A program made the translations under genes and the position numbers. Positions 12,626 to 17,144 of a stretch of 55,207 nt of DNA are shown in pieces; positions within the stretch are counted from its first letter, which is position 1, and the number at the start of each line of letters is the position of its first letter. Source of the stretch: Gemmatimonadaceae bacterium (lineage in GTDB: Bacteria; Gemmatimonadota; Gemmatimonadetes; Gemmatimonadales; Gemmatimonadaceae); assembly GCA_030647905.1 (NCBI GenBank), contig JAUSJA010000031.1:1-55207 (forward strand), read 5' to 3'. The notes under the pieces are model-generated. The model saw only the letters and a list, made by a program, of their open reading frames with translations. It did not search any database and was not told where the DNA came from.

Positions 12626-13834
12626 TCAGGCGACGCTTTCGACGCTCAGCGCGACGGCGTCGCCGCCGCCGAGGCAGAGCGTCGCCAGGCCCGTGCGCGC
12701 ACCGCGGTCCTTCATCGCGTAGAGCAGAGTCGTGAGCACGCGCGCACCGCTGGCGCCGATCGGATGCCCGAGGGCGATCGCGCCGCCGTTCACGTTGACG
12801 CGGCTCCAGTCCCACCCCAGCCCTTCGCCATCCGCGATGGCCTGCGACGCGAACGCTTCGTTGGCTTCGATCAGATCGTAGTCGCCGATCTTCGCGCCGG
12901 AGAGCTTCATCAGGTTCTGCACGGCGAAGATCGGTGCGAAGAACAGCTCATGCGGCTCGGTGCCGCCGGTGGCGTAGCCGGTGACGCGGGCCATGATGCT
13001 CAGGCCATTTTTCTCAGCGTACTCCTCCGACACGACGACGAGAGCCGATGCGCCGTCGTTGAGCGATGACGCGTTGCCGGCCGTCACCGAGAGATCGCTG
13101 GTATCTCCCTTTCCGGGAAACGCCGGCTTGAGCTTTGTGAGGCCCTCCGCCGTCGTGTCCTTGCGCGGCCCTTCGTCGGTATCCACGACAGTCGTTCCCT
13201 TGCGGCCGGCAATCTCCACGGGCACGATCTCGTCGCGGAACCGTCCGGCCTCGATCGCCAAAATCGCCTTGGCATGCGACTGTGCGGCGAACTCGTCCTG
13301 CCGCTCGCGGCTCACCTGACCCTTGCTTGCCGTGTGCTCCGCGTGCGCGCCCATGTGGACGTCACATGCAGCGCACCAGAGACCGTCCTTGATCATGCCG
13401 TCCACGATCTTCTGGTCGCCGAGCTTCACGCCGTTCCGCATACCATAGATGTAGTACGGCGCGTTGGACATGGATTCCTGGCCGCCGGCAACGACCACCT
13501 GCTTGTCGCCTGCCTTGATGGACTGCGCCGCGAGCATCACGGCCTTGAGGCCCGAACCGCAGACCTTGTTGATCGTGAGAGCGGAGACGGTCGCCGGTAC
13601 GCCGGCCTTGAGAGCGGCCTGACGCGCGGGAGCCTGGCCAGTGCCGCCCTGGAGGACCTGGCCCATGATGACTTCCTCGATCGCGTTGGCATCTATTCCG
13701 GCTCGCTTTACGGCTTCGCGAATGGCTATTGCGCCGAGCTCGGGGGCTGTCAGGGAGGAGAGACCGCCGAGGAACTTGCCGATTGGCGTTCTGGTGGCGG
13801 AGACGATGACGGGGGTGCGGGATTTATCTGGCAT
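12626..13834 (-). CDS. acetyl-CoA C-acetyltransferase (thiolase)
   Basis: A thiolase of about 402 residues. [14 protein letters not shown] opens the protein, the acyl-accepting cysteine is in [12 protein letters not shown] (about residue 92), and [12 protein letters not shown] and [10 protein letters not shown] carry the active-site His and second Cys. It joins two acetyl-CoA, or cleaves 3-oxoacyl-CoA, and with hbd and the acyl-CoA dehydrogenase forms a short-chain beta-oxidation set. An in-frame GTG at 13861 is an alternative start. Neither candidate has a strong ribosome binding site. It is the first gene of the leftward run. Confidence 0.94.
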
Positions 13835-14275
13835 TGAGTTCTGATTCGGGTTTGGCGACACCTAAAAATAATCCGAAGCGGAGGGCGGGGCGCGCTGGCT
13901 GGGTCAGAGTGGGACTGCCGATGAACTGACAGGTACCGGGTTCCAGAGGCACAGCTGACAGTTTGGCAGGTGTTCATCGCCGATCGCGGGCATTCGCTGG
14001 CGAGGCGTGTTAACGGTGCGACTGGCAGCAGGGTGATGCGGCACTTGTGCCCGCCTAAGGCGTTCGTACTTCGTGTCCGACTACCGCAAACTGAAGGTCT
14101 GGAGGTACGCAGGATGCTTCAGGGCCTGATCAATAGAATCAGCCTCGAATGAGGCCAGACGAGTCGTCCGCGCCGAGATCACCTCAATAGCTGTCAGCTA
14201 TGCCTCTGGAACCTGGTGCCTGTCAGTACTCGGCCGCTCGTTCCCAATGTTCCAGGGGCCCCCGAATCCTGCGCC
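13835..14275. other. intergenic stretch holding a MITE-like element
   Basis: No gene is supported here. The region contains the 303-bp inverted-repeat element listed separately, plus the probable promoter of the thl run just right of 13834. Short frames inside the element look accidental. Confidence 0.5.
13925..14227. mobile_element. MITE-like element with 37-bp terminal inverted repeats
   Basis: Bases 13925-13961 and the reverse complement of 14191-14227 agree at 34 of 37 positions. The shared core is GGTTCCAGAGGCA, flanked on each side by CTGACAG. The 229 bases between show no coding frame. Terminal inverted repeats around a short non-coding body is the layout of a miniature inverted-repeat element, or of a decayed IS. 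I do not see a clear target-site duplication at the outer edges, so an alternative is a bidirectional hairpin/regulatory pair. Confidence 0.55.
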
Positions 14276-16201
14276 CTACGGCTGCAACGCTCGCGACGTG
14301 ATCTGGCCTTCGACCATCGCCACGAAATCGGCGACCGGCATCACTTCCTGCTTTTTCCCCACCCCGCGCACTCTGAGCGCAAGCGAGTCGCTCTCCGTCT
14401 CGCGCTTCCCGACGATCGCCATGTACGGAATCTTGAGCGTCTCCGCCTCACGGATCCTGTAGTTCAGCGTCTCCGAGCGATCGTCCAGGTGCACCCGCGC
14501 GCCGCGCGCCTTGAGGCGCTCGGCCACTGACCGCGCGGCATCCGCGAAATCGTCGGCGATCGGAATCACGCGCACCTGCTCCGGCGCAAGCCACAACGGA
14601 AATGCACCGGCGTAGTGCTCGACCAGTCCGCCTACGAACCGCTCCATGGATCCGACGAGCACGCGGTGCAGCATGATCGGCCTGTGCGGCGAGTTGTCCG
14701 CACCAGTGTACTCGAGGTCGAATCGCTCCGGCAGATTGAAGTCCAGCTGCACCGTCGGGCCCTGCCACTTGCGGCCGATCGCGTCAATGAGTTTGAAGTC
14801 GAGCTTGGGCCCGTAGAACGCGCCGCCGCCGGCATCTATCGAATACTCCTGACCACGGCGCGTGAGCACCTCCGCCAGCGTAGCCTCGGCGCTCGCCCAC
14901 AGCTCCGGCGAGCCAAGTGCCTTCTCCGGGCGCGTCGCAAGCTCGATCGTGTACGGATAGCCGAATGTGCCGAGCATCTCGTGAACGAGGTCGAGGAGGC
15001 GCTCGATCTCCGACGGCACCTGCTCCTGCGTACAGAAAACGTGAGCATCGTCCTGCGTGAAGCCGCGCACGCGCAGCATGCCGTGCAGCACGCCGCTTCT
15101 CTCGTAGCGATAGACAGTCCCGAATTCCGCGTAGCGGATCGGAAGGTCCCGGTACGAGCGCGCTCGCGACTGGAAGATGCAGATATGCCCGGGGCAGTTC
15201 ATCGGTTTCGGCCTGTATGCCGCGCCCTCCACTTCCATCGCGCCGAACATGCTCTCGCGGAAGTTCTCGAGGTGTCCCGAGATCTGAAACAGTCGCTCGC
15301 TGGCGATGTGAGGCGTATAGACCAGCTCGTATCCGTGGCGGAGAATGAGATCGCGCTCATAGTTCTCGATCTCGTTGCGCACGATCGCGCCGCGCGGATG
15401 CCAGAGGATCAGCCCCGGTCCCACGCGCTGGTCAGTGGAGTAGAGATCGAGTTGCTGCCCCAAAGCGCGATGATCGCGCCGCTTCGCTTCCTCGAGGCGG
15501 TGCAGGTACGCGTCCAGGTCCTCCTTGCTGAACCACGCCGTGGCGTAGATCCGCTGGAGCATCTGCCGCTTCTCGTCGCCGCGCCAGTAGGCGCCCGCCG
15601 TGTGGAGCAGCTTGAAGTGCTTCAGGAACGAAGTGTCGGGAATGTGCGGGCCGCGGCACAGATCAATGAACGGACCGTCCGTGTAGGTCGAGATGATCTC
15701 GTCTTCGCTGAACTCCGAGAGGCGTTCGAGCTTGAGGGGGTCGTCGGAGAACTTCTCGCGCGCCTCGCTCTGATTCACCTCGGCCCGAATGAACGGATAC
15801 TTCTCCGCGATGACTTTTCGCATCTCGGCCTCGAAGCGCTCGAGGTCCTCCGGCGTGAACGGTTCGGCAACCTCGAAGTCGTAGTAGAAGCCGTCCTCGA
15901 TGGAGGGCCCGAATCCGATTTTCGCGTCTGGCCGGAGACGCCGGACCGCTGTTGCCAGGATGTGCGCGCTGGAGTGGCGAAGGACGTCGAGGGCTTTGGC
16001 ATCCCTGGCCGTGAGGACGCGGAAAGGGCCACCCCGGCGGAGCGGCGTGACGAGGTCCTGCACTTCGCCGTCCACCTCGACGGCCAGCGCGTCCCTCAGC
16101 AACCGCTGGCCGATGGAGCCCACCACATCGCGCGGCAAAGTGCCCTCCTCGACCTGCCGTGTCGCGCCGTCGGGGAGGGTGAGTGTCAGCATTTCAGACA
16201 T
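14276..16201 (-). CDS. thrS: threonyl-tRNA synthetase
   Basis: A 641-residue class II synthetase. Domains in order: TGS (LTLPDGATRQVEEG, residues 5-60), the SAD editing domain with HSSAHILATAVRRL and CRGPHIPDT, the catalytic core with MNCPGHICIFQ and RVRGFTQDDAHVFC, and a C-terminal anticodon-binding domain. The zinc cysteine is in MNCPGH. The frame is open upstream, but ATG 16201 with GGAA nearby gives the family start and leaves a divergent promoter region shared with the BON-domain gene. Confidence 0.97.
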   Translation of the reverse strand: MSEMLTLTLPDGATRQVEEGTLPRDVVGSIGQRLLRDALAVEVDGEVQDLVTPLRRGGPFRVLTARDAKALDVLRHSSAHILATAVRRLRPDAKIGFGPSIEDGFYYDFEVAEPFTPEDLERFEAEMRKVIAEKYPFIRAEVNQSEAREKFSDDPLKLERLSEFSEDEIISTYTDGPFIDLCRGPHIPDTSFLKHFKLLHTAGAYWRGDEKRQMLQRIYATAWFSKEDLDAYLHRLEEAKRRDHRALGQQLDLYSTDQRVGPGLILWHPRGAIVRNEIENYERDLILRHGYELVYTPHIASERLFQISGHLENFRESMFGAMEVEGAAYRPKPMNCPGHICIFQSRARSYRDLPIRYAEFGTVYRYERSGVLHGMLRVRGFTQDDAHVFCTQEQVPSEIERLLDLVHEMLGTFGYPYTIELATRPEKALGSPELWASAEATLAEVLTRRGQEYSIDAGGGAFYGPKLDFKLIDAIGRKWQGPTVQLDFNLPERFDLEYTGADNSPHRPIMLHRVLVGSMERFVGGLVEHYAGAFPLWLAPEQVRVIPIADDFADAARSVAERLKARGARVHLDDRSETLNYRIREAETLKIPYMAIVGKRETESDSLALRVRGVGKKQEVMPVADFVAMVEGQITSRALQP

Positions 16202-16286
16202 CAGGTTTCCAGTGCCGCAGATGGCCTTTAACTTGCTCCCGCGTAAGCTATCGTTTGAGGATACCCTTCGCCACAGGTTCGAATAC

Positions 16287-17144
16287 ATGTCTCCATTCAG
16301 ATATCGCGATGAAGAGTCCCGCTCCACGAGCGCGCTATACGTCGCGCTCGGCGCTCTGGCGGGCTTTGCCGCAGGGGTCGTAGTCGCTCAGCAGTACGGC
16401 GGCATTTCCGGGCTGACCGCGAAGATCCGCGACCGCCTCGGCAGCGTCAGGCGTGGCGCCGGGGACGACGATGAGCAACAGCTGGGCGCCCACGCTCACG
16501 ATCATCGGTACGAGGACGAGGACGAGGACGGGGACGATGACGATGAATACGAAGACGAGGGCGACGGCGAGCCGCTCGATGCGACGGAAGAGCTGGAGGA
16601 ACGCGTGCTGGAGGCGTTCCGCAACGATCCGATCCTGAGCGAGCGCGCGATAGACATTGGCGCGATTGATGAGGGCATTGTCGAGTTGACGGGCTGGGTC
16701 AATGCAGACGACGAATCGCAGCAGGCCGTCGTCATCGCGCGGGGGGTGCCGGGTGTCGAGACTGTCGTGAATCGTCTCGCAGTGCGTGCGGACGAGGATC
16801 TCTTCGACGAGCTCGCCGATCGCTACGATGATGGCGATCCGTCGCTGACCGAAGGCCAATGGGAGGGACAGAGCATCGGCACCGGCCGCAGACGCCAGGG
16901 TACGTCGGCCGAACCGGACCGCCATGAAGACCCGCGACCCGGTCTCGAGGAAAAAGTGCTCGACCGCGTTTACCTCGACCCTGACGATGAAGCGGAAGCA
17001 GGGGCCGAGCGTCGCAAGCGCACCAAGCAGCCGCCTCGCCGCGGGCGTGCCGACGGATCGCCAGTGGCTCCGACCGGAGTTCCGAAGAGCGATCACGTCG
17101 CCGATCCGCTCAGCGCTCCGACGGAGTCCGCGCAGGGAGATTAG
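16287..17144 (+). CDS. BON-domain protein with N-terminal membrane segment
   Basis: A protein of about 285 residues. Residues 16-35 form one hydrophobic segment (ALYVALGALAGFAAGVVV), followed by a very acidic Asp/Glu-rich stretch. A BON domain follows (about 110-170: AIDIGAIDEGIVELTGWV, VVNRL) and then a basic, low-complexity tail. BON domains bind membranes or mediate adhesion; the role here is unknown. I prefer ATG 16287; an in-frame ATG at 16221 would add 22 residues. It is divergent from thrS and followed by valS after 85 bases. Confidence 0.8.
   Translation: MSPFRYRDEESRSTSALYVALGALAGFAAGVVVAQQYGGISGLTAKIRDRLGSVRRGAGDDDEQQLGAHAHDHRYEDEDEDGDDDDEYEDEGDGEPLDATEELEERVLEAFRNDPILSERAIDIGAIDEGIVELTGWVNADDESQQAVVIARGVPGVETVVNRLAVRADEDLFDELADRYDDGDPSLTEGQWEGQSIGTGRRRQGTSAEPDRHEDPRPGLEEKVLDRVYLDPDDEAEAGAERRKRTKQPPRRGRADGSPVAPTGVPKSDHVADPLSAPTESAQGD

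Follow-up and report, generated by a model that had tools for sequence, protein, structure and literature searches.

A stem-loop element between thrS and thl in a Gemmatimonadaceae bacterium, probably derived by internal deletion from a dispersed IVP element

The described systems closest to the element analyzed here are the intervening sequences (IVSs) of rRNA genes, which carry a gene for the IVS protein, S23p or IVP. According to passages of PMC4990558, the IVS in the 23S rRNA of Coxiella burnetii comprises 428 nt with a 28-bp stem, in whose loop lies the gene for the four-helix-bundle protein S23p; it carries heptameric direct repeats, and in one strain the gene has lost 176 bp. The same passages record that mobility of IVSs had been proposed earlier and that RNase III acts on the Coxiella IVS, and they call both the function of the S23/IVP protein and the origin of rRNA IVSs open questions. 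As far as those passages describe it, this IVS shares with the IVP elements reported below a stem of inverted ends, an S23p gene in the loop and a length of a few hundred bases. The element found in our window (the whole 55,207-nucleotide stretch of Gemmatimonadaceae DNA that was analyzed, contig JAUSJA010000031.1) differs from rRNA IVSs in lying between protein genes, in having its gene cut to two fragments and in the sequence of its arms.

Three other groups of bacterial elements invite comparison. Like a miniature inverted-repeat transposable element (MITE), the window element is short and non-coding, has inverted ends and is internally deleted from a gene-carrying parent; unlike MITEs, it is present as a single copy, no transposase parent was found for it, and no target-site duplication was seen. 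TIRYT and REP sequences, in the portions of PMC3733652 and PMC6006769 that deal with them, are likewise dispersed bacterial inverted-repeat units with gene-less derivatives, but the protein is a different one, and the Y1 transposase was not found in the window's own genome. For diversity-generating retroelements, the relevant part of PMC10053308 likens PF05635 to their accessory protein Avd and gives it as the most frequent domain in the data; the IVP elements here differ in that they appear to carry only the small gene.

Structure, setting and copy number of the element

The element is located between two minus-strand genes, which we take, following the initial annotation and general knowledge, to be thrS (threonyl-tRNA synthetase, 14276-16327) on its upstream side and thl (thiolase, 12626-13861) on its downstream side. 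Its left arm (13925-13961, plus strand) and right arm (14191-14227, minus strand) match in inverted orientation at 34 of 37 positions, and counting the weaker inner part, which pairs to about 13975 on the left and inward to about 14177 on the right, the inverted arms come to 51 nt at 82%. These are the 37-bp imperfect inverted ends of the initial annotation, at the places given there; its further observation, CTGACAG at both borders of each arm, also holds, with the motif or its complement at 13926, 13955, 14191 and 14220. As the BLAST match between the arms runs slightly outward of this core of 13925-14227, pairing 13917-13961 with 14191-14234, the borders of the element are probably at about 13917-14234. 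Folded as single-stranded DNA, the 303 nt reach -83.4 kcal/mol (z -7.3), a value equaled by 0 of 100 shuffles. No open frame crosses the element, with stops in all six frames, and the Rfam models gave 0 matches at E <= 1 in the region 13700-14500. By eye, no target-site duplication is evident at the element, and in relatives the flanks have diverged too far to offer a clean empty site. The possibility of an integron attC site was also considered by eye and dropped.

Under one scoring rule, with a total length of 80-900, the element is the sole inverted repeat at threshold in 448 kb of its own genome (the window plus 20 further stretches), and Markov versions of the 20 stretches yielded 0 inverted repeats at the same threshold. 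Both results speak against a chance or local inverted duplication, an origin with which the single copy in the genome would agree; since each arm separately matches the profile of a family from other genomes (see below), that origin is already refuted, and we give it almost no credence.

It had been suggested that the element might provide promoter or terminator activity for the leftward run beginning with thl. Such activity finds no support: no sigma-70-like promoter was found in 13800-14300, and by eye the long hairpin is not followed by a T-run toward thl. The only terminator-like feature is a short minus-strand stem-loop within the element, at 14157-14140, where a consensus scan found 1 site against 0.2 in shuffles; being a consensus match, this site is not evidence of function. 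Between the element and thl, a short TAATC-containing motif (13864-13874, minus strand, by eye) recurs by eye at a like place in genomes G000, G003, G006, G007 and G013, and is possibly part of the thl promoter.

The initial annotation had read the element as a MITE and proposed a search for further copies with the same ends. That search found one full copy in the genome: the whole element matched in 1 of 149 genomes, its own, and of 395 genomes from the phylum only its own contained a 36-base end pattern when up to three mismatches were allowed. The whole element had no match in the plasmid and phage collections, nor a 19-base end pattern in viral contigs; in the species-wide genome set the same 19-base end occurred in seven stretches, all lacking an inverted partner within the DNA examined. 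A 15-base end pattern was present in 9 of 395 genomes; the matches in the eight genomes other than this one were fetched, found to have no inverted repeat and attributed to chance, and a weak left-end match in G009 (L110) was dropped because it lay inside open frames and was without arms. A relaxed left-end search of the element's own genome returned a lone arm-like stretch on contig C26 (L109:1993-2027, E 0.0042), which has no inverted partner.

An ordinary MITE mobilized by a DDE-type insertion sequence (IS), the full copy of which was lost or went unsampled, would account for terminal inverted repeats around a non-coding centre in one genome only. We nevertheless hold this origin to be improbable, as no related IS was found, nor any parent transposase with the same ends in the own genome, relatives, plasmids, phages or viral contigs; there is no second full copy, no plasmid or phage match and no viral-contig end, the seven species-wide stretches with the same end lack an inverted partner in the DNA examined, and the origin is further weakened by the IVP remnants in the interior (below) and by the lack of a visible target-site duplication. 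The MITE reading is partly supported: the element is a short, non-coding inverted repeat that internal deletion has reduced from a longer, gene-carrying parent whose ends are related, but that parent is an IVP stem-loop element and not a transposase IS, and it comes without further copies. More doubtful still is a pair of ends belonging to a RAYT/TIRYT (IS200-like Y1) transposase. In the relevant portions of PMC3733652 and PMC6006769, TIRYT elements elsewhere do have terminal inverted repeats and derived repeats, but the PF01797 gene was found 0 times in the own genome (and in 21 of the 61 genomes searched), and 30 loci of relatives were without similar inverted ends, the motif CTGACAGG occurring singly in two of them.

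A gene-less family and IVP genes between related arms

The lead to related elements came from a relaxed search with the left end in 19 same-genus genomes, the own genome included. The matches were weak, and three of them sat on inverted repeats of 158-183 bp, two in G012 and one in G014. Used as a query, one such repeat matched in 11 of 61 genomes, every one of the same genus; nine gave at least 16 match rows and the other two a single weak row apiece, when both orientations were counted and 13 candidates were scored in each genome. In the window's own genome this query found none at E <= 0.01. L119, L120 and L121 belong to this ~185-bp family, and a profile recovered 43 copies from 40 fetched stretches (L152-L191), one of them cut by the end of its stretch. 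The family carries no gene and keeps its stem by paired changes: among 42 aligned copies, 96.5% of the cells of 35 stem pairs are paired, and 12 of the 35 pairs have changed on both sides, with 61 such cells against 21.5 in shuffles. None of 500 shuffles was as high in any of five measures, a test inflated by the kinship among copies. When the partners were slid by one to three columns they paired at 32-40%, although this control leans toward the stem because the structure was derived from that same alignment. Part of the stem is variable yet co-varying, and the differences between the left arm and the right follow a regular pattern. By eye, further inverted repeats stand just outside the ends of L172, L173, L175 and L177, as if the units were nested.

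An arm profile was built from ~185-bp copies of other genomes, none from the window's own. Run against the whole window, its two best hits are the two arms of the element, facing inward (right arm, 14223-14181, E 0.00045; left arm, 13924-13971, E 0.004), the next hit having E 4.3. In the 448 kb of the own genome the window arms are again the top two (E 0.0036 and 0.032), and the third hit, at E 0.95, is the C26 stretch that resembles a single arm.

Such arms also bound two longer elements, L216 (in G012) and L225 (in G017), whose open frames match the Pfam model 23S_rRNA_IVP (E 6.6e-28 and 2e-26), the model of the 23S rRNA IVS protein. The IVP gene was detected in 51 of 61 genomes searched, with three matches, one partial, in the own genome. 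To L216 and L225 we added 40 fetched loci among the matches listed, 34 from the same genus (own genome included) and six from other genera; 41 of these 42 loci were scored with 300-bp flanks, L295 lying too near a contig end. Inverted repeats flank the IVP genes: 39 of 41 loci score above 27, the 99th percentile of 1500 random places, and 37 of 41 beat the random-place maximum of 33, with an IVP median of 82. L270 (27) and L296 (20), at or below the 99th percentile, did not pass, and L294 (28) and L279 (33) cleared that percentile without exceeding the highest control value, 33; the arms of L294 also score no better than its flanks do after shuffling. As a second control, 2048 open frames of comparable length gave the same 99th percentile and a few values up to 91, which we take to be real elements because several of the stretches had been chosen for holding elements. 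The IVP elements have a median length of 609 bp (quartiles 577-638, range 403-755) and a median arm length of 68 (range 21-136). They lie between ordinary protein genes, outside rRNA, and the 40 fetched loci contain no match to rRNA at Rfam's gathering scores. Near one IVP element, in G012, is a bacterial small SRP RNA gene (L285:1224-1320).

At 4 of the 40 further IVP loci, the arm profile built from the gene-less family hits both arms at E <= 0.01, so that gene-bearing and gene-less elements share ends. In the ~185-bp copies themselves, 831 segments yielded no significant IVP remnant (best E 3.2), and their one tie to IVP elements is therefore these shared arms. Among 38 IVP elements, the arms closest to those of the window are the arms of an intact element on contig C10 of the own genome, with a score of 59 against 41 for the next element and a maximum of 42 in 200 shuffled-arm sets; window arms and C10 arms are well diverged from each other. 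A full-length gapped alignment of the two elements was too gappy to be used (score 89, shuffle maximum 81; IVP element L292 reached 91, and the reverse strand up to 78).

Gene remnants, insertion sites and their interpretation

A profile built from 42 IVP proteins was run on six-frame segments, 1657 from the window and 13,649 from the 448 kb. The two best domain hits in the 448 kb both fall inside the element, on its plus strand. The first, VSDYRKLKVWRYA at 14073-14111, has 13 residues, scores 14.1 bits and corresponds to profile positions 3-15 of 125, near the start of the gene; the second, at 14093-14143, has 17 residues including EVRRMLQGL, scores 8.5 bits and corresponds to positions 102-118 of 125, near its end. 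As the second is barely above the third-best hit, which lies elsewhere at 8.3 bits, only the pair together is convincing. The two remnants are on the same strand and in the right order, overlapping and in different frames, from which it follows that the middle of the gene, ~87 codons or ~260 nt, is deleted and that the gene is dead. The junction lies in the overlap, at 14093-14111, where profile positions 15 and 102 abut and the frames differ. With ~260 bp of its gene missing and the rest out of frame, the window copy makes no IVP. If the lost ~260 bp are added to the present 303, the element comes to about 565 bp, just short of the lower quartile for intact elements (577), or to about 578 when the wider borders are used.

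We conclude that the window element probably arose from a dispersed IVP stem-loop element by internal deletion and is now MITE-like and probably inert, and we put the probability that it is such a deleted, non-autonomous derivative at roughly 0.86. The parent would have been a unit of ~600 bp, with two long imperfect inverted arms and, in the loop between them, a small gene that encodes a four-helix-bundle protein (Pfam 23S_rRNA_IVP, NCBIfam TIGR02436); the window copy would have lost ~260 bp of that gene, leaving the rest out of frame, and kept its hairpin arms. Such units may spread as hairpin elements, with IVP or another factor recognizing the hairpin or its ends, although IVP is not known to have transposase chemistry. 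Copies would survive where a hairpin does little harm, for example in the 3' flanks of genes, as hairpins there might be tolerated or trimmed in the way that the Coxiella IVS is by RNase III, and the IVSs of rRNA may be copies that landed in rRNA helices. As for the window copy, which flanks thrS on the 3' side, we regard it as most likely a passive relic.

Related sites were compared between genomes at two junctions. The first separates a PTS-like gene from guaA, names that we presume from the sequence and general knowledge; it matched in 59 of 61 genomes, 16 stretches were fetched, and 13 genomes were compared with G012 (junction loci L216 and L324-L337 for G012 and these 13). G012 has a 608-bp IVP element at this place, of which G016 shares the left part up to the end of its contig. 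The gap is 0-48 bp in six genomes (G001, G004, G013, G033, G096 and G102), holds a stem above shuffles without a long frame in five (G000, G006, G011, G015 and G017), and contains a GxxExxY gene (TIGR04256) with inverted repeats in two (G003 and G007). The gap of G017 (L326, 139 bp) is occupied by a gene-less hairpin made almost wholly of GGGATGC-type heptamers, possibly a minimal element.

At the second junction, the thrS-thl gap, the comparison with relatives proposed in the initial annotation could be made: the gap is 439 bp here (score 61, shuffle maximum 19) and about 85 bp in G003, which has an 8-base stem only (score 16, shuffle maximum 14). Stems well above shuffles occur in G000 (61 against 19), G006 (77 against 23) and G007 (73 against 22), and G013 has none (18 against 26). 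Elements have been gained or lost between species at both junctions, whatever the mechanism.

The second junction also bears on the possibility that the window element is a functional RNA or DNA structure (a terminator, an attenuator or a processing hairpin) held between thrS and thl by selection. The very stable fold would suit such a role, as would the paired changes by which the related ~185-bp family keeps its stem, and the stems above shuffles in the same gap of G006 and G007. The structure, however, is not conserved at this locus: those two stems have sequences unlike that of the window element, G013 has no stem above shuffles and G003 only eight bases; no Rfam model matches, by eye no T-run follows the long stem, and the pairing within the family could stem from copying between arms or from the needs of mobility. 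We therefore regard a selected structure as unlikely, if somewhat less so than a DDE-type MITE.

IVP elements on cyanobacterial plasmids and a possible wider class

A tblastn search with an IVP protein against the plasmid collection returned 15 records, all cyanobacterial by name, and the protein had no match in the phage collection. At all 12 plasmid IVP loci that were fetched, the flanking inverted arms score above every one of 100 one-flank shuffles, in a test that favours the observed score because flank shuffling breaks up simple repeats; the 12 loci are not independent, as several come from related Nostocales. A period of seven bases, with its multiples, is strong in two pools, 36 arms of this phylum (z 16.5) and 12 cyanobacterial arms (z 15.2), against z -2.2 in 36 random stretches, and seven is the best lag for 17 of 36 arms of this phylum and 10 of 12 cyanobacterial arms, against 3 of 36 random stretches. 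Much of the signal of this phylum comes from a small number of strong arrays, and the period is a property of the pooled set and not of each member; no clear 7-base period was found in the arms of the window element (z 1.4 and 1.1). Cyanobacteria have short tandemly repeated repeats of the heptamer type, to which the 7-base period of the cyanobacterial IVP arms may be linked; our literature search, weighted toward open-access sources, found no paper connecting the two.

A more general reading, toward which we lean, is that IVP/S23 proteins are the hallmark of mobile elements of one widespread class, small stem-loop units located mainly outside rRNA. Their arms would often consist of inverted 7-base repeats, and their loop would hold one small gene, either IVP or, as at one shared site, GxxExxY; gene-less, high-copy derivatives would keep their stems by paired changes, the window element would be a worn-out miniature, and the rRNA IVSs described since 1990 would be only those copies that landed in rRNA helices. 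If so, IVP genes, as the usual cargo, offer a large natural sample for work on mobility, on insertion sites and on the targets preferred, and some of the orphan inverted repeats of bacterial genomes become readable as worn-out derivatives. In a literature search weighted toward open-access sources, we found no printed account of dispersed inverted-repeat elements that lie outside rRNA and contain IVP genes.

GxxExxY genes (TIGR04256) lie between inverted repeats at both loci seen in the genus (L335:331-705 and L336:865-1239). For plasmid GxxExxY genes the arm rule is weaker, since among eight records (L339-L346) the arms exceed the shuffle maximum in three (in L340 by 3 points only) and by a single point in a fourth, and do not exceed it in the remaining four; in two unannotated records the gene borders were guessed. 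A GxxExxY match was also present on a plasmid of Gemmatirosa kalamazoonensis. Finally, three of the cyanobacterial plasmid IVP elements (L303, L307 and L310) are located between CRISPR genes, the neighbours being cas6/cas4 in two records and cas10/cmr3 in one.
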